Assembly: GCA_000415505.1 (NCBI GenBank)
Contig: KE354322.1
Coordinates: forward strand, 1 to 40,888
DNA: 40,888 nt
Direction of reading: 5' to 3'
Origin: Streptomyces afghaniensis 772
GTDB lineage: Bacteria > Actinomycetota > Actinomycetes > Streptomycetales > Streptomycetaceae
Notes under the pieces: generated by a model
Database searches by the model: none
What the model was told of the DNA's origin: nothing
The model's input: the letters and a program-made list of their open reading frames with translations, nothing else
Part shown: piece after piece, positions 21,988-35,317 of the stretch
Layout of the letters: each line of letters opens with the position of its first letter
How positions within the stretch are numbered: the stretch's first letter is position 1
Made by a program: the position numbers and the translations under genes

Positions 21988-22060
21988 TCCTCGGTAGCTC
22001 AATTGGCAGAGCAGCCGGCTGTTAACCGGCAGGTTACTGGTTCGAGTCCAGTCCGGGGAG
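21988..22060 (+). tRNA. tRNA-Asn (anticodon GTT), copy 1
   Basis: A 73-base cloverleaf: acceptor TCCTCGG paired with CCGGGGA, D arm TAGCTCAATTGGCAGAGCA, anticodon loop TGTTAAC (GTT), T arm ACTGGTTCGAGTCCAGT, discriminator G. CCA is not encoded. The gene lies 6 bases upstream of a near-identical copy. Confidence 0.95.
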
Positions 22061-22065
22061 CTCGG

Positions 22066-22138
22066 TCCTCCGTAGCTCAATTGGCAGAGCAGCCGGCTGT
22101 TAACCGGCAGGTTACTGGTTCGAGTCCAGTCGGGGGAG
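22066..22138 (+). tRNA. tRNA-Asn (anticodon GTT), copy 2
   Basis: Identical to copy 1 except in the acceptor stem, where TCCTCCG pairs with CGGGGGA. Base pair 6-67 has changed from G-C to C-G on both sides, so pairing is kept. CCA is not encoded. A terminator follows at 22150. Confidence 0.95.
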
Positions 22139-22149
22139 CATGTTGAACG

Positions 22150-22173
22150 AGGACCCCCGCAGGGGTCCTTTTT
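22150..22173 (+). terminator. Rho-independent terminator of the tRNA-Asn pair
   Basis: Stem GGACCCC (22151-22157) with GGGGTCC (22162-22168), 4-base loop, then five T (22169-22173). It is a canonical intrinsic terminator 12 bases after the second tRNA. Confidence 0.9.
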
Positions 22174-22327
22174 CATGTCCGTTCCGATCTTCCGGGAACC
22201 GTGCGGCGCCGGGCGCAGTCCTCATGGTCGCGAAGGCCGTGCGAAGCCGACCATCCGAAGCAGGAGATCGTATGAGCGGCTATGCTGCGGCAGACGGCGC
22301 GCACACATGTACGCGACACGCCGCTAT

Positions 22328-22404
22328 GGGGCGGTAGCTCAGCCGGTTAGAGCAGCGGACTCATAATCCGTCGGCCGTGGGTTCGAGTCCCACCCGCCCC
22401 ACCA
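22328..22404 (+). tRNA. tRNA-Met (anticodon CAT)
   Basis: Acceptor GGGGCGG paired with CCGCCCC, D arm TAGCTCAGCCGGTTAGAGCA, anticodon arm GCGGACTCATAATCCGT (CAT), T arm GTGGGTTCGAGTCCCAC, discriminator A and encoded CCA (22402-22404). It is not initiator-like. A CAT anticodon could also belong to lysidine-modified tRNA-Ile2, but the elongator Met reading is the default. A weak 5-base hairpin (22405-22417) follows. Confidence 0.9.
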
Positions 22405-22511: not shown

Positions 22512-22847
22512 GTGCTGAATCTCGCGTCCGACATCGAGGTGCTGGCGCGGTTCGGTCGCGCGCTCGCCGATCCGATCCGCTGCCGTCTGCTGCTCGTCCT
22601 GCGTGCGGCTCCGGCCTACCCGTCCGATCTGGCCGAAGCCATCGGTATCTCCCGCACGCGTCTGTCCAACCACCTGGCCTGTCTGCGTGACTGCGGACTG
22701 GTCGTCGCCGTTCCCGAGGGCCGTCGTACGCGCTACGAGCTTGCCGACCCCCGTCTGGGTCACGCGCTGGACGACCTGCGCACAGCCGTGGTGGCTGTCG
22801 CCCAGGACAGCAGGTGCCCGGACGCCGAGGAGACGGGCTGCTGCTGA
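22512..22847 (+). CDS. CmtR-like ArsR-family metal-sensing repressor
   Basis: A 111-residue winged-helix repressor. The helix-turn-helix is SDLAEAIGISRTRLSNHLACLRDCGLV, and the wing is PEGRRTRYELAD. The recognition helix carries C-x3-C (ACLRDC), and the C-terminal tail carries more Cys (SRCPDAEETGCC). This pattern is diagnostic of CmtR, the Cd(II)/Pb(II) sensor of mycobacteria, which uses Cys57, Cys61 and Cys102. It should derepress the adjacent exporter when metal binds. GTG 22512 is the probable start; GTG 22506 is an alternative, and no ribosome site is obvious. Its stop shares one base with the exporter ATG (TGATG), which implies coupled translation. Confidence 0.85.
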   Translation: MLNLASDIEVLARFGRALADPIRCRLLLVLRAAPAYPSDLAEAIGISRTRLSNHLACLRDCGLVVAVPEGRRTRYELADPRLGHALDDLRTAVVAVAQDSRCPDAEETGCC

Positions 22848-23572
22848 TGGCCGCGGAGATTTCCCTCGGCCCGGCTCCCGCACGCCGGGAGGTCCTGGCG
22901 CGCCGCATACGGCTCCTGGTGGCGGCGACGATCACCTACAACGTGATCGAAGCCGTCGTCGCCATCACGGCGGGGTCGGTCGCGTCGTCCTCCGCGCTGA
23001 TCGGCTTCGGTCTGGACTCGGTGATCGAGGTCTCGTCGGCGGCCGCGGTGGCCTGGCAGTTCTCGGCCCGCGAGCACGCCGTGCGCGAGGCGCGGGAGAG
23101 GAAGGCGCTGCGGATCATAGCCGTGTCGTTCTTCGCGCTCGCCGCCTTCGTGGCGGTGGACGCGGTCCGGTCCCTGGCGGGCAGCGGGGAAGCCGAGTCG
23201 TCGGTGACCGGCATCGTGCTGGCCGCTGTGTCCCTGGCGGTCATGCCGTTCCTCTCCGCCGCGCAGCGACTGGCCGGCCGGGAGCTCGGGTCGGCGTCGG
23301 CCGTGGCGGACTCCAAGCAGACGCTGCTGTGCACCTATCTCTCGGCGGTCCTGCTGGTGGGACTGCTCGCCAATGCGGCGTTCGGCTGGTCCTGGGCGGA
23401 TCCCACAGCCGCTCTGGTGATAGCGGGGATCGCCGTGAAGGAAGGCCGGGAGGCGTGGCGCGGAGACGGCTGCTGCGCGCCGGCCGGGCTGAGCACGCTG
23501 AAGGCCGGCGGCGATCCGGCCGGAGCCGAGGACGCCTGCGGCTGCGCCCCGGCGGGCGCCTGCTGCAACTGA
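22847..23572 (+). CDS. CDF-type cation exporter with a Cys-rich tail
   Basis: A 241-residue membrane protein with six helices (for example LVAATITYNVIEAVVAITAG, IIAVSFFALAAFVAVDAV, GIVLAAVSLAVMPFL, LSAVLLVGLLANAAFG). The layout is that of cation diffusion facilitators. The zinc-type HxxxD sites are not present: the TM2 site reads LDSVIE and the TM5 site ADSKQT. The usual cytoplasmic C-terminal dimer domain is missing and is replaced by a short tail holding seven Cys (CCAPAG, DACGCAPAGACC). That suits a soft metal such as Cd or Pb, in agreement with the CmtR-like regulator immediately upstream. Direction (export) is inferred from context. Confidence 0.8.
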   Translation: MAAEISLGPAPARREVLARRIRLLVAATITYNVIEAVVAITAGSVASSSALIGFGLDSVIEVSSAAAVAWQFSAREHAVREARERKALRIIAVSFFALAAFVAVDAVRSLAGSGEAESSVTGIVLAAVSLAVMPFLSAAQRLAGRELGSASAVADSKQTLLCTYLSAVLLVGLLANAAFGWSWADPTAALVIAGIAVKEGREAWRGDGCCAPAGLSTLKAGGDPAGAEDACGCAPAGACCN

Positions 23573-23579
23573 CCTGGCG

Positions 23580-23876
23580 ATGCCGCCACTTCGGGGCAGG
23601 GGGCCTCGTCGGTGTTCGGGTCCGGGCGTCGACACTGGGCGGTGCCGAGGCGGCGTCGGCGGTGGGTGTACGTGGTGATCGCCTGCCACAGGTGGCGGCG
23701 GTCGGTGTCGGGCCAGAGGTCCGGCGTGAAGTGCAGCTCGGCGTAGGCGGTGTGCCAGGGCAGGAAGTTGGAGGTGCGCCGCTCGTTGCCGGTGCGCCGG
23801 AGCAGGTCGACGTCCGGCATGTCCGGGTGGGGCAGGTGCCGCGCGAAGTCCTCCTCGCCGATCGGGTCGGGTGCCG
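23580..23876 (-). pseudogene. C-terminal remnant of a cis-prenyltransferase (UppS family)
   Basis: Minus-strand translation gives EEDFARHLPHPDMPDVDLL, RRTGNERRTSNFLPWHTAYA and ELHFTPDLWPDTDRRHLW. This matches the last third of undecaprenyl (cis-polyprenyl) diphosphate synthases, where the equivalent motifs are DLxIRTxGExRxSNFLLWQxAYAEFxFT and LWPDFxxxDL. The first two-thirds, including the catalytic Asp and NFSTENW region, are missing. There is no stop in this frame until 23335, inside the antisense exporter gene. Boundaries are approximate. It may be a decayed copy, or a small gene joined by a frameshift to the acidic peptide at 23877-23954. Confidence 0.6.
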
Positions 23877-23954
23877 TCAGGAGCCGGTGCCGTCGTCCTC
23901 GCTGCCGGTGTCGTCGCGGTCGCCCTCTGCCTGGGACGGGGTGTGGTCGCTCAT
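23877..23954 (-). CDS. Very small acidic peptide (25 aa), possible leader of the UppS remnant
   Basis: ATG 23954 is preceded by an ideal AAGGAGG site at 7-base spacing and encodes 25 residues rich in Asp, Glu, Gly and Ser (SQAEGDRDDTGSEDDGTGS). It ends just where the UppS-like frame begins. The strong ribosome site argues that something is translated here. A one-base change would fuse it to the UppS-like fragment. Confidence 0.4.
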   Translation of the reverse strand: MSDHTPSQAEGDRDDTGSEDDGTGS

Positions 23955-24121
23955 CGGGATGCCTCCTTCCCGTGCCGGTGGACCGGAGCGGCCGTGTGCC
24001 GTGCTCCGGCCGTGACCGGCCGAGTACCCCGACGGGCTGCGAAGCACCGTGGCAGCAGCGGGCTGCCCGGCCGGCGGCGTACCGGGGCGGCGGCCGGGGG
24101 GCGGGCTCCTCGTGCCGGGGG

Positions 24122-24816
24122 TCAGGTCCGGCCGCGGCGGGCGATGGCTCGCTGCAAGGCCTCACGGAGGCGGGGGACGGGCGGGGACCGTCGGGCTTCG
24201 TGCTGGCCGTCACGGCGGCGGCCACGTCACGGAGCTTGGTGTTGGAGAGCTGGGAGGTCTCGCGGAGGATGTGCCAGGCCTCGTCGGACGTGCAGCCGTG
24301 GGTGGCCATGAGGATGCCCCGGGCCTGGTCGATGACCGGGCGGGAGGCGATGGCCTGGCGGAGCTGCTCGACCTCCTCCTGGAGGACGTGCAGGCGCTCC
24401 GCGCGTTCCAGGGCGACCGCGGACGGGGCCGGGGCGGCCGGCCGGCCGGGCTCCGGGTCGGGGTGGGGCGTGTCGCGCAGGGGGTCGGCCGTGTCCAGGC
24501 CCGCCAGTTCCAGGATCCGGCGCGGCTGGCCGTTCCAGTTCGTGGTCGTGACCGTCACGAATCGCTGCCGGGCGAAGTCGCCCAGCACGTCGAGGAACTG
24601 CAGACCCGCCGTGTCCATGAAGTGCACGCCCCCCATGTCCAGGTCCACCCGCGTGATCGTGGGCGGCAGTTCGGCCAGGGTCCTGGCCAGTGTTTCCGCG
24701 CAGCCGTGAACCAGCTCACCGCACGGGGTGAGCTCAGCCCGTTCCGCGTCCACGCGGCCACTGATCACCAGTGTGTTCAACCCTCCTGTGCGATGTGCTG
24801 ATGCCGCAGACGTCAT
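24122..24816 (-). CDS. STAS-ANTAR regulatory protein (one apparent frameshift near the 3' end)
   Basis: About 231 residues. The N-terminal half is a STAS (anti-sigma antagonist-like) domain: RVDLDMGGVHFMDTAGLQFLDVLGD, with Thr where partner-switch STAS proteins carry the phosphorylated Ser/Thr. After a Pro-rich linker comes a short coiled region and an ANTAR RNA-binding domain: LRQAIASRPVIDQARGILMA, HGCTSDEAWHILRETSQ, SNTKLRDVAAAV. ANTAR proteins act by antitermination on dual hairpins. Read as given, the frame runs on to 23335. A one-base shift in the G-rich run near 24165-24175 yields the expected ending REALQRAIARRGRT and a stop at 24122. ATG 24816 has AGAGG upstream. It is divergent from the STAS/MEDS operon. 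Confidence 0.75.
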
Positions 24817-24933
24817 GTCACCGCCTCTTCGGTCGTGTTCCTCCTCGCGGAACCGCACGACGTCACTCGCCCCCGTGGACGTCGGTGTGAGGTGCGCCTG
24901 CCCGCCGTACGGCGTACTACACACCACAGCGGG

Positions 24934-24958
24934 GAATGAGCTTCCCCCGGGCGGGTAC
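24934..24958 (+). promoter_or_regulatory. Sigma-B-type promoter for the STAS / MEDS-kinase operon
   Basis: GAAT (24934-24937), 15 bases, then GGGTAC (24953-24958). This matches the Streptomyces SigB-family consensus GNNT-N14-16-GGGTAC/T exactly. The implied start near 24965 is about 28 bases before the TTG start at 24993, and it excludes the in-frame ATG at 24936. Confidence 0.65.
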
Positions 24959-24992
24959 GAGCGCTGTGGTCCACAAGCGTGGGGAGAGGGGC

Positions 24993-25349
24993 TTGAACAC
25001 TCAGTATCGGGTGCCGGCCGCCGGGTCCAGTGACCCCGTGCCGGGCCTGGCGGTGTTCCCGTTGTCCGGGCGCAACGGTGTCCGGGCGGCGGGTGAGGTC
25101 GTCCTGACGACACGTGCGATCTGGGAAGGCGTACTGGAGCAGGCCGTTCGCGAGGATGAGGACGTGTACTACCTGGAGTTGTCCGACGTGACGTTCGTCG
25201 ACGTCGCGGGCGCGGGTGCGCTGGCGACGGCCGCCGGGCAGCTCGGGGACGGCCGGCGGTTCGTGGTGCGACGGCCACCGCCCGCCCTGCGGCGGACGCT
25301 GGACCTGCTGTGGCCCGACCACGCCGGGATCGAGGTGTCGGTGTCATGA
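24993..25349 (+). CDS. STAS-domain protein (anti-sigma factor antagonist-like)
   Basis: A 118-residue STAS protein. Recognisable are LTTRAIWEGVLEQAVREDEDVYYLELSDVTFVDVAGAGALATAA and the terminal RRPPPALRRTLDLLWPDHAGIEV, typical of the anti-sigma antagonist fold. The usual phospho-Ser position reads DVAGAGAL, with no Ser or Thr, so regulation by phosphorylation is doubtful. The start is TTG 24993 with GGGGAG 6 bases upstream; other in-frame starts lie before the proposed transcription start. Its stop overlaps the ATG of the MEDS/HATPase gene (ATGA), so the two are co-translated and probably interact. Confidence 0.7.
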   Translation: MNTQYRVPAAGSSDPVPGLAVFPLSGRNGVRAAGEVVLTTRAIWEGVLEQAVREDEDVYYLELSDVTFVDVAGAGALATAAGQLGDGRRFVVRRPPPALRRTLDLLWPDHAGIEVSVS

Positions 25350-26327: not shown

Positions 26328-27365
26328 TCAGGACCCCAGCGGATCCAGCGCCAGCGGTGCGATCCTGCCCTCCATCATCGCGCCGAGGCCCTGCACGGCG
26401 CACACGTCCGGGCGCTCGGCGATGTGCACGGGCATACCGGTCGCCTGACGCAGCATCTGGTCCAGGCCCGGCAGCAGCGCACTGCCGCCGACCATCATGA
26501 TCCCCCGGTCGGCGAGGTCGGCGACCAGGTCGGGCGGGCAGGAGCGCAGCACCTTGCCGATGCCGTCCAGGATGGCGGTGAGCGGCGTCTGGATGGCATC
26601 CCGTACGGCGGCGGTGTCCACCTGGACGGATCGGGCCAGGCCGGTCGCGACGTCCCGCCCGTGGATCTCCGTCGAGGCCGGGCCCTGCGGGGTGAGACCG
26701 TTGCCGGACAGGGCGAGCTGCAACGGCCGTACCGACTGGCTGGGCAGCATCAGCTCGTGTTCGTGCCGCAGGTGCTGCACGATCGCCTGGTCGACGGCCT
26801 CGCCGCCCACCGGGATGCGCTCGGCGGTGACGATCGAGCCGAGGGACAGCACGGCCACCTGCGTCGCCGCCGCCCCGCACACCATGATCATCGTGGCCTC
26901 GGGCTGCTCCACGGGCAGTCCGCAGCCGACGGCGGCGGCGATCAGCGTGTCGACCAGCTCCACGCGGCGGGCCCCGAGGCCGACCAGCGTCTCGATGGCG
27001 GCGCGCTGGGCGAGCGGGTCGGCGTCGTGCGGGGTGCAGGCCGCGGCGCGCAGGATCGGCTTGCGGCGCAGGCTGCGGCGCATCTTGTCGCCGAGCAGGT
27101 GCCGCAGCATGCGCTGCGCCATCTCGATGTCGACGACGGTGCCGCCGGAGACCGGCCGTGCCACCCGGATGTAGTCCGGTGTGCGGCCCGTCATCTTCTC
27201 CGCGAGTTCGCCGACCGCGATCAGCGCGCCGGTGCGGGTGTTCACGGCGGCGGCGGACGGCTGGTCGACGACGAGCCCGGCGCCTTTGACGTAGACACGG
27301 GTGCGGGCCGCCCCCAGGTCGACGGCGAAGTGGCAGCGGCGCAACTGCTCCAGACTGGCGGTCAT
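26328..27365 (-). CDS. mbl: MreB-like actin homologue Mbl
   Basis: A 345-residue actin-fold protein of the MreB family. In Streptomyces, Mbl works with MreB in spore-wall assembly. It has the N-terminal phosphate-1 loop FAVDLGAARTRVYVKG, the segment RTPDYIRVARPVSGGTVVDIEMAQRMLRHLL and the adenosine loop RGIMMVGGSALLPGLDQML. The phosphate-2 loop, normally DIGGGTTEVAVISL, reads CGAAATQVAVLSL here, so the catalytic Asp and two Gly are lost and ATP turnover may be weak. ATG 27365 has GGGAGGA upstream. Context fits S. coelicolor mbl (SCO2451, from memory). The family also includes MreB itself, but loss of the phosphate-2 motif points to Mbl. Confidence 0.85.
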   Translation of the reverse strand: MTASLEQLRRCHFAVDLGAARTRVYVKGAGLVVDQPSAAAVNTRTGALIAVGELAEKMTGRTPDYIRVARPVSGGTVVDIEMAQRMLRHLLGDKMRRSLRRKPILRAAACTPHDADPLAQRAAIETLVGLGARRVELVDTLIAAAVGCGLPVEQPEATMIMVCGAAATQVAVLSLGSIVTAERIPVGGEAVDQAIVQHLRHEHELMLPSQSVRPLQLALSGNGLTPQGPASTEIHGRDVATGLARSVQVDTAAVRDAIQTPLTAILDGIGKVLRSCPPDLVADLADRGIMMVGGSALLPGLDQMLRQATGMPVHIAERPDVCAVQGLGAMMEGRIAPLALDPLGS

Positions 27366-27538: not shown

Positions 27539-28215
27539 CTAGAGCGAGCGTGCGGCCTCCAGGAGCGATGTCAGGGAGGTGACGGTGGTTTCGCAGCCGG
27601 CCTCGCGGAGCTGCCGGTCGGTGGTGGCGTTGCGGGCGAGGCCGACGAAGCGCAGGCCGGCCCGCTGGGCGGCGGCGAGCTCGGCGACCGTGCACCCGAT
27701 GACCAGGCCCGTGGTGGCGGTCCCGGCGCCGGAGTCCAGGGCGCGCAGCAGGCAGTCCGGGTGCGGTGTGAGGAGACCGAGATCCTCGGCGCGGCCGTGA
27801 ACGCCGGCCAGGGGGAGCGTGCCGTAGGGCCTCAGGTAGCGGTGTGCGGCCTCGGCGCAGGCGTCCGTGACCACGCAGACGCGGCGGCCGGAGGCGTGCA
27901 GGGTGCGGAGCAGGGGCGCGAAGTTGTGTGTCGCCGGCGCGTGCGGCACGGCCCGGAGTTCGAGGTCGTCGAGGCGTTCCCGCAGCAGCGGGCCGAGCCG
28001 GTCCTGCGCGAAGGCCCGCAGTACGTCCAGTGGATGCGCGAACGCCTCCTGCCCCGCTCCGCCCCCGGTGTCCCGAGGGCCGCGGTGCTCGGCGACGAGG
28101 GCGAGCAGGTCGCGTACGGCCTCGCGCGCGGTGCTCGCCGAGAACAGCCGGGCAACGGGCCCGTCGAAGCCGAACAGCACGGTCTCGGCGTCGCCGAGGA
28201 GGCCGGGCAGCGGAC
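27539..28215 (-). other. HAD-like domain with lost catalytic residues
   Basis: The last ~225 codons of the composite above fold as a HAD phosphatase-like domain (ETVLFGFDGPVARLFSASTA to TSLLEAARSL), but all key motifs are damaged. Motif I is GFDG, with Gly for the nucleophile Asp of DxDG. Motif III reads LTPHPD where family members have K-P-x-P-D. Motif IV reads IGCTVAEL where GDxxxD is expected. Motif II keeps its Thr (VVTDAC). The domain is therefore probably a binding or sensing module. It could be a separate gene, but no ribosome site or good start is visible in its frame. Confidence 0.7.
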
Positions 28216-30772
28216 GGTCCGGCCACGGGGCGGGCCCTGCGGCCCGGGCAGCGCCGCTCCCTCCGGGGCGAGCCGCACCGAGGCCGCCACCGACAGGCCC
28301 GGCACCGGCCACCCGCGCAGCCCGGCGTTGACCGCACGCTGGGCCGCGCCCGCCCGGCGCAGTGGATGGCGGCGGGTGATACGGGCCGCCTCCTCCAGCA
28401 GATGGCCGAGCAGCGGCTCGGACACCCGGGTGACCTCGGCGCGCACGAAGGCGACCGGGTCGTCCACCTGCCAGGACAGTTCGACCGCGGCGGTGAAGGC
28501 GCCCTTGCCGGAGCTCGGCAGGGAGACCTGGTGGTGGGAGTGGTGGGTGGTGAGGTCCACCTCGTAGTACGTCACGAGCCGCGGCGGCCCGTCGCCGTGC
28601 GGCTGGGCGGGGTTGAGGAGGGTGAGCGGGCCGTCGGGCCGGGTGTGGACGACGGCCGTGCGGCCCGGGGCCGGTATCCCGAGCCGGCGCAGGTCGCGCG
28701 TGATGAACGGGCCCCGCACCAGGTCGCGGGCCTCGGGGCCGGGGGCGGCCGTGGCAGGGGACAGCGGGCAGTACCAGGCGACGGGCGGGGTGTCCGTGGC
28801 GCCGCCCCGGTAGAGGGGCTGGAAGCGCTGCGGTCCCTGTGCCGCCGAGCTGCCGGCGAACTGCTCGTACACGCCCGGGGAGACGACCACCTGGATGTCG
28901 GCGGACGCGTGCGGTTCCTCCTCCGGCGGCGGGGTGGGCCGGTCCCAGAACGTCACGGTCAGACGCGGCGGGTCCACCAGCCCGGTGAGCACCTCGGGCA
29001 GCCCGCGCAGGACCGCGACCAGCACCGGGAGCACATAGGTGCCGGGTTCGGTGTGGACGGCGTAGCCGTTGCCGCGGACCCGGACGTCGAACTGGGAAGC
29101 GGTGAGGGCGCCGCGGGAGAGCATCTCGTGCACCGCGTATTCGAGGGTGATACGGGCCTCGGGGTGGTGGGTGAGGTCGTCGGCCTCGAAGAGGATCGTG
29201 GGGCGGGCGCGGTGGCCCAGCCGGCGTACGGTCTCCTCGCTCACCGTCGCGAACGCCGTGCCCGAGCCGTCGCGTTCGCCGGTCGTCTCGGCCCGGAACT
29301 CGCCGGCCGCGAGTCCGGCCCGTTCGTCGATCAGGCCTCCGACCTGTGCGAGGAACTCGCGGGTGCGGCCCCGGGCCGTGCGCGGGAGGGAGCGCAGCAG
29401 CAACTCCCGCACGCCGGGCCGGAACTCGTAGGAGCCGGGTGGGCCGGGGACGGAGGCGAGCATGCCGCTGAGGATCACCTCGGCCAGGTGCTGGGGGCGC
29501 GGGTCGCGGTCCACGGTGCGCTGGACCAGGCGCATCACCGGCACCGAGGGGACCGCCAGGGCGAGGTGCCCGGCGAGGCGGAAGGCCTCCGGGGACGCGG
29601 TCGCGCGAAAGCGCAGGACCAGCTCCTCCGGGGAGGACGAGGCGATGTCGGGGGTCGGTTCGGCGGGCGGGGCGGGGGAGGGCGGCAGCCAGGCCGCGGC
29701 GCCCGGCGTGCGGGCCCCGCCCGGGCCTGCGACCAGGGCCGCCCAGTGCGCGAGCCAGGGGGCGCCCGGTTCCAGGACCGGTAGCGGGAGGGCCTGGTCG
29801 GGGGGTGGTGCGGCTTCGTAGGGGGTGAAGGCGAGGGTCGCCGAAGGTGCCGCCGTGGAGGGGGAGGTGAGCAGGCCCGGCTCGGCGGGGAGCGCGGTGA
29901 TGGGCCAGAGGTGTTCCGGGAGGGGCTGCACCACGGCGAGTGGCAGGTGGCGGGCCCAGTGGCGCAGCGTGCGGTACCACCGCTCGCCCGCCTCGCCCGG
30001 ACGCCACTGCGGGCCCATGCAGTCGCTGACGACGAGCGTGACGGTGCGGCCGTCGTCGAGGACGGGGACGTGGCGGGCCCGGCCGTCCGGGGTCGCCGGG
30101 TGCAGGGTGACCGTTCGGAAGAGGCCCGACTGGGCGAGGGCGGTGTGCAGTTCGCTCACCAGGGGGCGCCAGACCGGCATGGTGGGGCCGGTGTCGTGCA
30201 CGAGGTTCAGGCGCAGCCAGCGGTCGGGGGCCGGGCGCAGGACCGGGAGCCACACGTCGGGGTGGGCGCCGAGCCGGGCGATGCGGTCGGCCGTCGCCCG
30301 CTCGTCCAGCACCCGGGCGTACGGGGAGGGCACCTTGCGCCTGAGCGGGCGCAGGGCGCGCTGGAGCGCGAGGGGGTGGGGCAGCATCGGGGGCGCGGGG
30401 GCGAGGAGGGGGATCCGCCGCCGGGTGGGGAGTCGTGCGGGGAGCGCGGGGCGGGCAGGGTCAGCGGGACGCGGTCGGGGGTGGGCGGACCGGCTCCGGC
30501 TCCGGTTGCGGGGGTGCGGGGGCGGGGGTGTCCGCCTTCTCTTGGGTTTCCGCCGTCTGGGGGGTGTTTGCCTCGGGTGCGGGCGTGGCGGACGAGGGGG
30601 CGTTGTCGTCGCCGGGTTCCGGCAGCGGCTCCTCCTGCCGGTCCGGGTCCAGCAGGGCGGCCATCCACAGCAGTTCGGCCAGCTCTCGGGGCGTCGGCGA
30701 CGCGCCGGCCGCGGACAGGGCCGCGGTCAGCCGGGCGACCGGTGACGGTCCGGGGCCGTGGTCAGAGACCAT
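27539..30772 (-). CDS. SAV_2336-type protein: N-terminal domain, vWA-like core and C-terminal HAD-like domain (two apparent frameshifts)
   Basis: This is a composite of about 1,077 codons. It starts at ATG 30772 with the SAV_2336 N-terminal domain (VARLTAALSAAGASPTPREL, AELLWMAALLDPDRQ), then a Pro/Glu-rich linker. Near 30480 the frame must change once. The core follows (RRRIPLLAPAPPMLPHPLAL, QRALRPLRRKVPSPYARVLD), with a vWA-like strand LNLVHDTGPTMPVW whose D-x-G-x-T replaces the MIDAS DxSxS, then VTLVVSDCMGPQWRPGEAGE. Near 28215-28245 the frame must change again to enter a HAD-like domain ending at 27539. Without that change the core frame continues to 27832 as low-quality sequence. The first codons overlap the end of the MoxR gene by 11 bases. 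This type of protein is the vWA partner in predicted vWA-MoxR-VMAP conflict systems. Exact boundaries depend on the two indels. Confidence 0.7.
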
Positions 30773-31781
30773 CGCCGTCGGCCGTCGCGCTGAGGTACGG
30801 CATCAGCTGCTCGGCGAGGTCGTCGCGGGACTCGGCGTCGAGGCCCGCGACTCCGGTGAGGTAGAGGGCGTTCAGCAGCTGGTCGGTGGCGAGTTCGCCG
30901 CCGCCCGCCCGCTCCAGGAAGCGGGTGATCAGACGGTCCGCGTGACCGTCCGGGGTGTCGAGGTGGGCGCGGACGATGTCGGTGAGCTGGTCCCGGTCGG
31001 GGCGGCGCAGCTTCAGCCGGACGCAGCGGCGCAGGAAGGCGGGCGGGAACTCGCGTTCGCCGTTGCTGGTCAGCACGACGAACGGGAAGGCCCGGCAGCG
31101 GACCCGCCCGCGGTGGACGGTGACCGGGGTGTCCGTGCCGTCCGCGAGGACCTCGGCCGCGCCGTCGCCCGAGTGGCGGGCGGCCCGGACCAGTTCCGGG
31201 ATCTCGTACTGGCCCTCCTCCAGCACGTTCAGCAGGTCGTTCGGCAGGTCGAGGTCGCTCTTGTCGATCTCGTCGACGAGCAGGGCGCGGGGCCGGTCGT
31301 AGGGGAGCAGGGCGGTGCCGAGCGGGCCGAGGCGCAGGTGGTCCTCGACGTCGCCGGCGGCACGGCCGGGCCCGCCCTGCCGCTCCCGGGCCGCGTACAG
31401 CCGGGACAGCGGGTCGTACTGGTAGAGGCCGTCGGCGAGGGTGCTGCGGCTGGTGATGTTCCAGCGCAGGACCGGTCCGAGGCGCAGCTCGCGCGCCACC
31501 GCGTACGCGAGTGAGGACTTGCCGGTGCCGGGCGGGCCCGTGACGAGCAGGGGGCGGCGCAGGCACAGCGCGGCGTTGACGAGCCGGACGCTCTCCGGGG
31601 TGGCCACGTACGACTTCGCCCGGTGCACGCGGTCGGGGGAGACGGCCGTCGCGTCATCGCTGTCGAGGGGCGGCGGCAGGGCGGGCCCGCCGTCGAAGGC
31701 ACGCCAGGGCGGTGGGGCGGGGAGGTGGTCGATGCCGTCGTGCGGCTCGTTCTCGCCGGTGTAGACGGACCAGTGCGGCAT
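30762..31781 (-). CDS. MoxR-type AAA+ ATPase
   Basis: A 339-residue AAA+ ATPase of the MoxR group. It has Walker A VTGPPGTGKSSLAYAVA, Walker B ALLVDEIDKSDLDLPNDLL, sensor 1 FVVLTSNGEREFPPAFLRRC with the arginine finger, and a lid domain to the C-terminus. MoxR ATPases remodel partner proteins, usually with a vWA protein encoded next door. Here the SAV_2336/vWA gene starts inside its last codons, and the protease-VMAP gene ends 69 bases upstream. ATG 31781 begins MPHWSVYTGENEPHDGIDHL; the first ~50 residues are a poorly conserved leader. The set matches the predicted ternary vWA-MoxR-VMAP architecture. Confidence 0.88.
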   Translation of the reverse strand: MPHWSVYTGENEPHDGIDHLPAPPPWRAFDGGPALPPPLDSDDATAVSPDRVHRAKSYVATPESVRLVNAALCLRRPLLVTGPPGTGKSSLAYAVARELRLGPVLRWNITSRSTLADGLYQYDPLSRLYAARERQGGPGRAAGDVEDHLRLGPLGTALLPYDRPRALLVDEIDKSDLDLPNDLLNVLEEGQYEIPELVRAARHSGDGAAEVLADGTDTPVTVHRGRVRCRAFPFVVLTSNGEREFPPAFLRRCVRLKLRRPDRDQLTDIVRAHLDTPDGHADRLITRFLERAGGGELATDQLLNALYLTGVAGLDAESRDDLAEQLMPYLSATADGDGL

Positions 31782-31850
31782 GGGGGATGTTCTCCGCTCT
31801 CCGTTTCGAGCTGGTGGTTCTCAGGTGCGCCGGGCCGGGCCCGCGGTGGG

Positions 31851-33539
31851 TCAGGCCACGGGGGTCCGGGCGTGGGCGGCGGCTACGGCATGCGGGTCGG
31901 TGAAGACGCGCGGGTCGTCCCACAGCAGCTGGATGCCGTGGGCCCAGTGGTCCTCCTCGGCATCGGCCTCTTCGCGCAGGGCCAGGATCCGGCGCGGGAG
32001 CTCGGCGGGCGGTACGGCCTTGAGGCAGGTGTCGAGCTCGTCGAGGAAGGCCTTGCCGGTGCAGCCGTCCGCTCCGGAGCAGTCCTCCTGCCCCGAGCCG
32101 CAGCCGTCGCGCGACCACACGATCACCGGGGCCGGCGCCGTGAGCGAGGTGTCGAAGTGCGGCCGGGTGCGGGAGGCGGCCGGGGCGGTGCCGAACCCGG
32201 CGAGGCAGGCGTCGGGCTGCCGCAGCCGCATCCGCAGCCGCCCGGGTTCCTCCGGACCGCCGCACTCCACGCGGTGCATCCGCGCGCCCGGCAAGGCGTC
32301 GAGGCGCTTCCAGGTCCGGGTCAGCACGTGCCGGGTGCTGGCCTTGCGCCGGGCGTGGTCGGTGACGACCAGCGGGTAGACGCAGCCGAGCGGGGTGGCG
32401 TCGTCGGGGGCGCTCTCCCAGCGGTCGACGGGCCAGTCCAGCCAGTCCCGGGGCAGCGCGAAGGCGACCAACTCGTCGGCGCCGGGCGTCAGATACCGGA
32501 AGGCCGCCTCGATACGGTCCTGCACGTACGCGCGCAGCCGGTGCTGCTCGACCGTGCCCGAGTCCACCGGGTGCCGCCGCCCCTCGCTGTACGCGGACAC
32601 CTCGACGCGGACCAGGTCGTCGCCCGCGCCGCTGTGCCCGAGTTCGACCAGGATGGGCGACCAGTCGGGCGCCGACGGCTCCGCGGCCGGGGTGTGCAGC
32701 AGGTCCTGGAGCCGGTCGGCGAACCGGGACACCGTGCGCGCGGCGCCCGGGCCGTCGAGTTCGCACAGCACGAACAGGGCCGCCGACCACAGCGAGTCGA
32801 ATCCCTCCGCGGGCGGCGGCGGATCGAACGGGTCGGCCGCCGCGGTGTAGAGCCGGACCGGGTCGCACTCCACGCCCGCGCGGGCCGCCTTCTCGACCAG
32901 GGCGCGCAGCCGGGCCCGGTCGGCGGTGGTGTGGTCCGAGGTGGGGACCAGGCTCTGGAGTGCGGGCCAGTAGCGGGCCATGACCTGGGTGGGCATCATC
33001 CGGCCGGTGCGCACCTCCCCGCTGCCGGCCGCCGCCGTGACCATGCCGACGACCTCGCCGGTGTCGGCCAGGGTGACGGCGGCCCCGCTGAAGCCGGGGG
33101 CCAGGGGCTGGCCGCCCGGGTGCCAGGCCTCCAGCTGGAGCCACTCCCGTTTGATCAACTGGGGTGCGGTGACGCGGTATTCGGCGAGGGTGCCCTCGTC
33201 GAAGCCGGCCGGAAAGCCGTAGACGACGAGCTTGCGCGGCGTTGTGCCGTGCGCGGCGTCGACCGGGGCCAGCGCGGCCGGGGCGACGGGCACCTCCCGG
33301 TCGAGTTCCAGCACGGCGAGGTCGCCGAGGTCGGTGCTGGAGCCGGACCAGCCGCCGTGGGCGACCACCCGGGCGGGCACGGGCGGGGAGCCGGGCCGCT
33401 CCGTGAACGTCACGGTCAGGCTCTCGCCGTCCCCCACGACGTGGGCGCACGTCAGCACCGTGCCGGGCGCGACCAGGAAGCCCGCTCCGGCCACCCGGCC
33501 CCGTAACTCGACCCGGGCGTGCCACTCGGCGCTGTTCAT
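31851..33539 (-). CDS. Cytosolic trypsin-like protease fused to a VMAP C-terminal domain
   Basis: A 562-residue protein. Residues ~1-210 form a trypsin-fold serine protease with all three catalytic residues: His in VLTCAHVVGDG, Asp in DLGDLAVLELDRE and Ser in APGFSGAAVTL. There is no signal peptide or membrane segment, so it is cytosolic. The remaining ~340 residues resemble the VMAP (vWA-MoxR-associated protein) C-terminal region: WSPILVELGHSGAGDDLVRVEVS, VAFALPRDWLDWPVDRWE, YPLVVTDHARRKA, and a Cys-rich DGCGSGQEDCSGADGCTGKA. In predicted conflict systems such a protease is thought to be released on a trigger and cleave host or self proteins. Its ATG overlaps the stop of the Trypco1 gene (ATGA). 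Confidence 0.85.
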   Translation of the reverse strand: MNSAEWHARVELRGRVAGAGFLVAPGTVLTCAHVVGDGESLTVTFTERPGSPPVPARVVAHGGWSGSSTDLGDLAVLELDREVPVAPAALAPVDAAHGTTPRKLVVYGFPAGFDEGTLAEYRVTAPQLIKREWLQLEAWHPGGQPLAPGFSGAAVTLADTGEVVGMVTAAAGSGEVRTGRMMPTQVMARYWPALQSLVPTSDHTTADRARLRALVEKAARAGVECDPVRLYTAAADPFDPPPPAEGFDSLWSAALFVLCELDGPGAARTVSRFADRLQDLLHTPAAEPSAPDWSPILVELGHSGAGDDLVRVEVSAYSEGRRHPVDSGTVEQHRLRAYVQDRIEAAFRYLTPGADELVAFALPRDWLDWPVDRWESAPDDATPLGCVYPLVVTDHARRKASTRHVLTRTWKRLDALPGARMHRVECGGPEEPGRLRMRLRQPDACLAGFGTAPAASRTRPHFDTSLTAPAPVIVWSRDGCGSGQEDCSGADGCTGKAFLDELDTCLKAVPPAELPRRILALREEADAEEDHWAHGIQLLWDDPRVFTDPHAVAAAHARTPVA

Positions 33540-33901
33540 GAGGCGGGGCTGGTCTCCGGACCGGCCGGGGACCAGGTCAGTCTGACCACCAGGTGGCCCT
33601 CGGCGGTGCCCTTGGCGATGAACGCGCCCGTCTCCGCGGACAGTTTGACCCCGAACTCGATCTCCACGCCGTCGGGCTTCAGGGACCCGTCGCGGAACAC
33701 CCGCAGTGCGGACTCCGCCGCCGAACGCACCCCGTCCAGGGCGCCCTCGAAGGTGCGGGTCGCCTGGACCGTGCCGTCGCCGCGGGAGACCAGGCGGGAG
33801 CCGGACCGCTCCTCCTCCACCGCCTCGACCGCGACCACGGCACCGTCACCGGTCCTGAATTCGACCAACCCGTCCACGGCACCCCCGTCGTCCCACTGCA
33901 C
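33536..33901 (-). CDS. Trypco1 (CU044_2847-family) partner of the trypsin-like protease
   Basis: A 121-residue protein of the family named CU044_2847 / Trypco1 ('trypsin co-occurring'), found almost only next to cytosolic trypsin-like proteases. The conserved end is VEIEFGVKLSAETGAFIAKGTAEGHLVVRLTW. The middle (GVRSAAESALRVFRDGSLKP) is helical. It is the first gene of the operon and overlaps the protease start, so it probably acts as a chaperone, inhibitor or recruiter of the protease; the role is predicted only. The start is GTG 33901, with GGAAA about 9 bases upstream. The AT-rich stretch 33905-33958 before it is the likely operon promoter, though I cannot assign boxes. Confidence 0.8.
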   Translation of the reverse strand: MQWDDGGAVDGLVEFRTGDGAVVAVEAVEEERSGSRLVSRGDGTVQATRTFEGALDGVRSAAESALRVFRDGSLKPDGVEIEFGVKLSAETGAFIAKGTAEGHLVVRLTWSPAGPETSPAS

Positions 33902-33959: not shown

Positions 33960-35317
33960 TCACGGACCCACGGTCCCCCGGATCACCCCCAGCTCCACCA
34001 GATCCTGCGGCCGGATGCGGAGCTGGTCCGCCGTCGCCTCCACCTCGCGCGGCGGCCGCTTGAGGATGGCCGCCGCGAGCTCCGGCGCGATCACCGAGAA
34101 GTAACTGTCCGGGGTGCCCAGGTGTTGCCGGGCGCGGCCAGCGCCAGCGCGCCGCCGGAGCCGCCCTCGCCGATCACCAGCGTCGTCACCGGCGTGCGGG
34201 CGCCGGCCACCGCGCCGAACAGGTCCGCGATCGCGGCGCCCGCGCCCTGCCGCTCCGCCGCCGCGTCGTTGGCGGCGCCCGGGGTGTCCACGAGGGTCAG
34301 CACCGGGATGCCCAGCCGGTCCGCGAGGCGGATCAGACGGGCGGCGGTGCGGTAGCCGGCGGGGCGGGTCGCGGTCCCGGTCTGCGCGGCGTAGGCGACC
34401 GTCCGGCCCTCGTGCGTGCCGAAGCCGCACAGCATGCCGTCCGGGTCCGTGCCGCCGCAGCGGTCGCCGCTGATCGCGGCCCGGTCGGAGAAGTAGGCGT
34501 CCAAGTAGGCGGCGGCGCGCGGGCGTCGGGGTGAGCGGGCGCGCCGGACGGCGTCCCAGCCGGTGGCGGGCAGGCCCGCGTCGTCGCCGAGCGGTTCGGG
34601 CGGCGGGGCCGGTGTGCCGGACGGGCACGTCAGCAGCCGCAGCCACCGGCCCAGAGTCTCGCGCAGCTCCTCCGGCCGTACGACCGCGTCCACCGCGCCG
34701 GCCGCGAACTGCGCCTCGGCCGTGTACGCCGCCGGGTCCGCGTCCGCCGGCCGAACCCGGGAGCCGGCGAAGCCGACCTGGGCCCCGGGCAGCGCGAGGA
34801 CCACGTCGGCGCCCGCCCCCAGGGTGGCCCAGCCGCCCCCGGTCGTCGGATCGCGCACCACCGCGACCTGCGCGAGACCCGCCTGTCTGGTGAGCGCCGA
34901 CTGCCGGGCCACGCGCTGGAGCTGGGTCAGGGCGAGCATGCCCTCCTGCATCCGGCTGCCGCCGGTGGCGACCAGTGGCACGACCGGGAGGCGGTGCTCC
35001 CGGGCGTAGGTGTACGCCGCCTCCAGCCGGTCGCCGGTGCGTTCGCCGAGCGAGCCGCCGAGGAAGCCGAACTCGAAGGCGATCAGCACGGCCCGGGTGC
35101 CGCCCACGCGGGCGGTGCCGCAGACCACGGACTCCTGCTCGCCGGTGCGCTCGGCGGCACGGGTGCGCAGGGCGTCGTAGCCGGGCCAGCCGAGCGGGCC
35201 GTCGGGTTTGGAGTCCCGTATGACGGCGGGCAGTTCGGCGAAGGTGGCGTCGTCGGCGATGGCGTCGGCGACCGCCCGGGCGGAGAGACGCTCAGTCGCG
35301 GGGAGGCGCTCAGTCAT
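33960..35317 (-). CDS. Fused carboxyltransferase (AccD-AccA-like) protein of the malonate locus (one apparent frameshift)
   Basis: About 450 residues. The N-terminal half is a carboxyltransferase beta domain (FEFGFLGGSLGERTGDRLEA, VVPLVATGGSRMQEGMLALTQL) without the AccD zinc finger. The C-terminal half is the alpha domain (YFSDRAAISGDRCGGTDPDG, LADRLGIPVLTLVDTPGAAN, VIGEGGSGGALALAAPGN). Near 34116 one base is missing. The frame then continues as TPDSYFSVIAPELAAAILKR and RPQDLVELGVIRGT to a stop at 33960; otherwise translation ends early at 34091. The ATG overlaps the end of matB by 8 bases. In rhizobial mat operons the equivalent place is held by malonyl-CoA decarboxylase, so this protein may decarboxylate or transcarboxylate malonyl-CoA. 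A biotin partner is not encoded here. Confidence 0.8.

Follow-up and report, generated by a model that had tools for sequence, protein, structure and literature searches.

The 40,888-nucleotide stretch of Streptomyces afghaniensis 772 analysed here, referred to below as the window, carries a four-gene operon on its minus strand that encodes, in order, a Trypco1 protein, a trypsin-VMAP-C fusion, a MoxR ATPase and a vWA/SAV_2336 scaffold, as read from the open reading frames (ORFs) of the window. Judged by its sequence, the operon is a predicted conflict system of the VMAP ternary (vWA-MoxR-VMAP) type described by Kaur et al. 2020 (eLife 9:e52696, PMC7159879). We lean slightly towards a joint reading in which this assignment would hold, the tail of the vWA protein would sense and the VMAP trypsin would act. 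What is new here is a chromosomal slot with full, empty and remnant versions, the contrast between a live protease and a dead tail, and the loss of the nucleophile of the HAD domain, together with the counts for it.

Gene order and family assignment

The four genes are tightly packed (Table 1). Trypco1 and VMAP meet in an ATGA overlap, 69 bases separate the VMAP stop codon from the MoxR start, and the end of MoxR overlaps the start of the vWA gene by 11 bases, an arrangement that the initial annotation, made from the sequence alone, had described and that the minus-strand ORFs bear out. The start codon of Trypco1 is uncertain, with a two-base length difference from the closest relative, G009, falling within the first called codons in a DNA alignment. 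The VMAP gene matches the VMAP-C profile PF20028 at 1e-43 and 150 bits (cut-off 27) and the Trypsin_2 profile PF13365 at 1.3e-13. Going by the position of the gene, the NF041121/SAV_2336 family is presumably the vWA component.

The string 'SAV_2336' is absent from the text of Kaur et al. 2020 (PMC7159879). The N-terminus of the window MoxR carries WSVYTG and PPWRAF, which by eye correspond to the motifs WxhapG and PsWRxa given in that paper. Along with these motifs, the profile matches to Trypco1, VMAP-C and SAV_2336, which like that to MoxR had been put forward as a check, uphold the ternary assignment of the initial annotation. Its suggestion of an undescribed system does not stand, the system having already been described by Kaur et al. 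2020 as a prediction. Nor is the HAD-like end an extra module, as had been proposed, because the passages of that paper on which we draw (PMC7159879) already report a strong coupling of Band-7 domains with a HAD at the C-terminus. PADLOC models gave weak domain-level matches only, such as RT-Protease_XI to the trypsin (6.1e-7) and IetA to MoxR (6.7e-6).

Table 1. Coordinates of the operon genes and of the genes on either side of them in the window
Feature	Position	Strand	Remarks
Trypco1 protein, trypsin partner	33536..33901	-	121 amino acids as called; PF19493 3.6e-26, NF041216 1.9e-23
VMAP protein	31851..33539	-	Trypsin-like protease about 1-195, triad H33/D73/S151; helical middle; VMAP-C 309-543
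MoxR AAA+ ATPase	30762..31781	-	PF07728 AAA_5 2.4e-8; VMAP-subsystem N-terminal motifs; Walker A GPPGTGKS, Walker B LLVDEIDKS
vWA/SAV_2336, first piece	30461..30772	-	103 codons, first frame, closed by an in-frame stop; NF041121 positions 2-77, 1.8e-4 (below cut-off)
vWA/SAV_2336, middle piece	28186..30411	-	Second frame; vWA core and, in the terms of Kaur et al., cyclase-like/Band-7-like tail; NF041121 SAV_2336_NTERM positions 100-474, 6.3e-122
vWA/SAV_2336, last piece	27539..28216	-	Back in the first frame; HAD-like domain lacking the catalytic nucleophile and lysine; PF00702 8e-4 (below cut-off)
Left flank: ACC-type carboxyltransferase gene	33960..35317	-	PF03255 3.7e-32; frame-broken near 34.12 kb
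Right flank: mreB/mbl-like gene	26328..27365	-	Conserved beside the operon

Linkage is also kept in relatives. Among 79 named loci, which are genome-scan matches by similarity to the window vWA gene, 67 have upstream room, and all 67 keep VMAP, MoxR and vWA in this order. Trypco1 precedes them in 64, with the other three having no Trypco1 match. The linkage is therefore not accidental, in agreement with what had been expected of the homologues. The motif counts below were taken over 89 loci, comprising the 79 named loci and ten genus loci; some of the latter repeat named species, so these are counts of sequences and not of independent events.

The genome of S. afghaniensis 772 itself has four VMAP-C matches above the curated cut-off, on contigs C617, C760, C500 and C105, which perhaps stand for four whole or partial VMAP systems. 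On the three of these contigs other than that of the window, the MoxR matches are about 50-62% identical, and one of them is in pieces.

Protease, ATPase and tail domains

Opposed predictions have been made for the sensing and acting ends of these systems. In the model of Kaur et al. (PMC7159879; summarised in PMC10907252), sensing falls to VMAP and the trypsin releases effector domains from the tail of the vWA protein, while Dore et al. 2024 (PMC10907252) make the vWA protein the sensor and the VMAP protease the acting part. The residues of the catalytic domains favour the second. The trypsin triad is intact in all 77 loci with a match, as are Walker A and B in all 77 MoxR matches. In a fold search with a model of the whole VMAP protein, the protease domain lay nearest to stress proteases of the HtrA/DegS/MarP type; the matches were all occupied by this domain, leaving VMAP-C without a fold match, and a solved-structure sequence search with the VMAP protein found nothing.

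The tail presents the opposite picture. The nucleophile aspartate of HAD motif I is found in none of 78 sequences (74 of them distinct, the window included), the position being held by glycine in 76, the window among them, and by alanine and cysteine in one each; the motif III lysine is likewise missing from all 78. The kinase-like block carried by relatives has the catalytic lysine, the HRD aspartate and the DFG aspartate in 0 of 66 loci with a match, with one gap at DFG, and the two readable control kinases keep all three. Possible inactivity of the HAD, for lack of a lysine, and inactivity of some kinases were already pointed out by Kaur et al. 2020 (PMC7159879).

The identity of the tail domains is clearest for the HAD. 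An AlphaFold2 model of the vWA protein of L025, a relative with an intact operon in S. coeruleorubidus ATCC 13740, has low confidence in its core, and its Foldseek list is filled by HAD, the fold in the tail resembling phosphoglycolate phosphatase; a solved-structure sequence search with a vWA relative returned a single weak HAD match. Comparison of Band_7 with the tail by hhalign gave an E-value of 0.069 and a probability of 0.8% over 55 columns, with five Band_7 loci of the same genome as reference, and Pfam at E 0.1 gave no Band_7 match in L025. For a class III cyclase there was no convincing profile alignment with the tail, several reference frames having been crudely chosen and perhaps wrong, and Pfam listed no cyclase in L025. 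The window tail is without the kinase-wHTH block that many close relatives carry.

Across relatives, tail domains vary more than the remainder of the operon, and 27 changes of tail type were counted on a 73-row MoxR tree built by a quick method. Tails were typed by BLAST against pieces of relatives, with similarity to the wHTH/BTAD stretch (looser than Pfam) scored as type T and the window assigned its type by hand. L068 and L118 are scored as bearing a kinase here but fall below the stricter cut used elsewhere. Eight of the 89 loci were left out as open-ended or broken (L041, L044, L048, L060, L069, L074, L090 and L094), and 73 of the 82 remaining rows are in the tree.

Under the joint reading, the vWA protein would form the scaffold and do the sensing, with a variable tail that binds a signal of invasion or damage. 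In the window, this tail would consist of the HAD-fold domain and two less certain parts; in many relatives it would also include a block of pseudokinase and wHTH. The complex would then be remodelled by the MoxR ATPase, with the VMAP trypsin, which VMAP-C and Trypco1 would hold, as the catalytic output, cleaving proteins of the cell or the invader and possibly killing or arresting the cell. Where both HAD and kinase have lost their catalytic residues and no protease triad is lost, a tail that senses and a protease that acts make the simpler view. The proposal of Kaur et al., in which MoxR transmits a signal from VMAP, the trypsin cuts the vWA protein and the freed C-terminal domains are the effectors, has the standing of a published model, and the high variability of the tail relative to the other operon parts is what effectors often display. 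In this clade, however, the HAD and kinase modules could act by binding only, since their catalytic residues are missing, and the protease has kept its triad throughout; we regard the published model as rather unlikely here.

Several points weigh against a sensing tail with a protease output. Among the papers listed in the literature searches, one listing being limited to 20 of 1,844 entries, VMAP ternary systems appear as predictions only, with no phenotype, which agrees with the remark in the initial annotation that an experimentally defined trigger or target is lacking. The argument from dead enzymes covers the HAD and kinase only and does not extend to the cyclase-like part, and a kinase block is missing from the window tail itself. 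Pseudo-enzymes can also be effectors through binding. The relatives are one family of closely related genomes found by vWA similarity, so the motif counts are not independent, and the loss-prone presence of the operon, set out below, fits many dispensable gene sets and not defence alone.

A more specific version, which we offer tentatively and think doubtful, is that the vWA tails are sensors built of dead enzymes (pseudokinase, HAD and perhaps a cyclase-like fold) that are swapped modularly in a slot often emptied, with the MoxR-released VMAP trypsin as the only weapon. Such tails may be decoys mimicking the targets of invaders, comparable to integrated-decoy immune receptors.

Chromosomal slot and frame breaks

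The operon sits in a slot between an ACC-type carboxyltransferase gene and a gene that is presumably mreB/mbl-like, a name given to it from its sequence and not by profile. The mreB-like gene lies downstream in 73 of the 79 named relatives. Upstream, a carboxyltransferase or AMP-ligase-like gene is found in 56 of the 65 named loci with at least 7 kb of upstream sequence and is absent in nine, so this left flank is widespread without being universal. To avoid the bias of a set chosen by vWA similarity, the mreB-like gene was also searched for in 81 genus genomes drawn evenly, of which 80 matched, S. afghaniensis 772 included. The stretch upstream of it was examined in 77 genomes besides G009, with G017 left out as having an mbl fragment at a contig end. 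The operon core is at the slot in 10 of 78 genus loci.

From 79 loci (the window, L109 and 77 others), 52 were set aside for having no carboxyltransferase or ligase beside mbl; VMAP, MoxR and vWA matches were absent within the stretch covered in these 52, some of the stretches being short. Among the 27 comparable genomes, the window included, the slot is full in 11, holds none of the operon in 11 and holds a remnant in five, namely a lone Trypco1 (L113, L122) or a HAD tail (L115, L117 and, by eye only, L130). These states were set by hand, 'full' meaning that VMAP, MoxR and vWA were matched; L132 is without a Trypco1 match and L133 without a HAD match. In L115 and L122 the slot, upstream of the mreB-like gene, also holds a long opposite-strand gene that reads like a secreted subtilisin, a name given by reading and not by profile. 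In L113 the slot is occupied, from about 2.0 to 0.4 kb ahead of the mreB-like gene and beside the orphan Trypco1, by a gene reading like an FAD-linked oxidase with a twin-arginine-like start.

On an mbl tree of the 27 genomes, full and other states differ by nine changes, at least seven of them on starred branches. Shuffled labels gave a mean of 8.7 changes, with 355 of 500 shuffles as low as the observed nine, i.e., presence shows no phylogenetic clustering. The window and G009 group with G026 (locus L112; 97% identical mbl), whose site is empty: homology on the left flank ends at the carboxyltransferase stop codon and restarts about 15 bases past the stop codon of vWA, leaving 15 bases in between. 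Short empty sites like this one, with 15-281 bases separating the flanks, occur in 7 of the 11 loci holding none of the operon (L112, L119, L123, L125, L126, L127 and L128), and the other four (L137, L158, L159 and L172, the last without a carboxyltransferase) hold about 1.8-5.1 kb of other DNA. No flanking pair of repeats was found at the slot ends, each end having been searched by itself, without a comparison between the two or a search for mobile elements. Repeated loss and re-gain are not told apart by the slot data, which would speak for loss in some lineages because remnants persist at the slot. Occupying a single chromosomal slot, the operon acts like a self-contained cassette that is often gained or lost, and its full, empty and remnant versions are ready-made natural comparison strains.

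The copy in the window had been called complete. As assembled, though, its vWA gene is in three pieces and two frames, with shifts between about 30.49 and 30.40 kb and near 28.2 kb, whereas G009, the nearest sampled relative (MoxR 98% identical), has a single open frame of 1089 codons. The operon had been placed at 27539..33901; its lower limit is indeed the end of the HAD frame, and the span reads across the breaks. The middle piece is 92% identical to G009 in the second frame. In the DNA alignment, three one-base length differences from G009 fall inside the vWA gene, none inside VMAP or MoxR, and one in the neighbouring carboxyltransferase gene, where the reading shifts near 34.12 kb, leaving the C-terminal part in a different frame; not every further length difference between the window and G009 was assigned to coding or non-coding sequence.

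The possibility that the vWA gene undergoes a programmed frameshift or is conserved in split form was rejected, as core and HAD share one open frame in 77 of the 89 loci; the remaining 12, which are cut off, broken or without a HAD match, are L041, L044, L048, L075, L081, L083, L084, L089, L090, L094, L097 and L133. The breaks might instead be real and the operon a decaying remnant in S. afghaniensis 772. The three differences inside the vWA gene, with VMAP and MoxR spared, would suit decay, as would the partial losses at the same slot. However, the same kind of break affects the adjacent carboxyltransferase gene, the assembly is in 1724 contigs, the stretch has a G+C content of about 75-77%, and at least four of the 79 named relatives, all whole genome shotgun records, also seem by eye to be without a single frame (L041, L044, L090 and L094). 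Given the broken neighbour, the fragmented assembly and the base composition, an error of sequencing or assembly is a likelier cause than decay, which we consider unlikely. With the scaffold frame broken as assembled, the copy in this strain may or may not work.

The operon could also be a chaperone-protease module for quality control or development, pairing an HtrA-like protease with MoxR/vWA, and not a conflict system. The stress-protease folds nearest to the protease domain are what such a module would have, and the slot is stable and adjoins an mreB-like gene. However, the operon is absent or a remnant in 16 of the 27 comparable genomes, including the close relative G026, and is therefore dispensable, and its frequent exchange of tail modules would be unusual for housekeeping. 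We consider a quality-control or developmental role unlikely.

Elsewhere in the window, the coding frames at 22603-25347 are confused and match G009 piecewise, with a frame error or a replaced segment being possible. At 21988-22404 there are two tRNA-Asn genes, almost next to each other, and a tRNA-Met gene.

Comparison with known systems

In the passages drawn on here, Kaur et al. 2020 (PMC7159879) found VMAP systems to be common in multicellular bacteria. Like theirs, the operon has VMAP-C, an N-terminal trypsin with an adjacent Trypco1, the VMAP-MoxR-vWA order, the MoxR motifs and a multi-domain vWA tail ending in HAD. It differs in that its vWA gene is frame-broken in this assembly and its tail is without the kinase-wHTH block. 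The slot, its empty versions and the lost nucleophile of the HAD go beyond the account in those passages, which name the missing lysine.

The systems of Thiohalocapsa linked to diversity-generating retroelements (DGRs) that were reported by Dore et al. (PMC10907252) share the trypsin-VMAP, MoxR and vWA proteins, and the proposed role of the vWA protein as sensor fits the window data. Unlike the tails of those systems, which carry diversified CLec domains, the recognised tail domains here are dead enzymes. The same ternary core, as named by its authors, appears in PMC10910872, where vWA-MoxR-VMAP genes are found near CRISPR loci, a setting that fits a conflict role. At the level of single domains, the N-terminal domain of VMAP has the fold and catalytic triad of HtrA/MarP-type serine proteases but is fused to VMAP-C, and Pfam lists no PDZ domain in the window VMAP protein. 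Similarly, the HAD domain has the fold of phosphoglycolate-phosphatase-like HAD phosphatases, as seen in the relative L025, but differs from these enzymes in missing both the nucleophile aspartate and the motif III lysine in every sequence compared.

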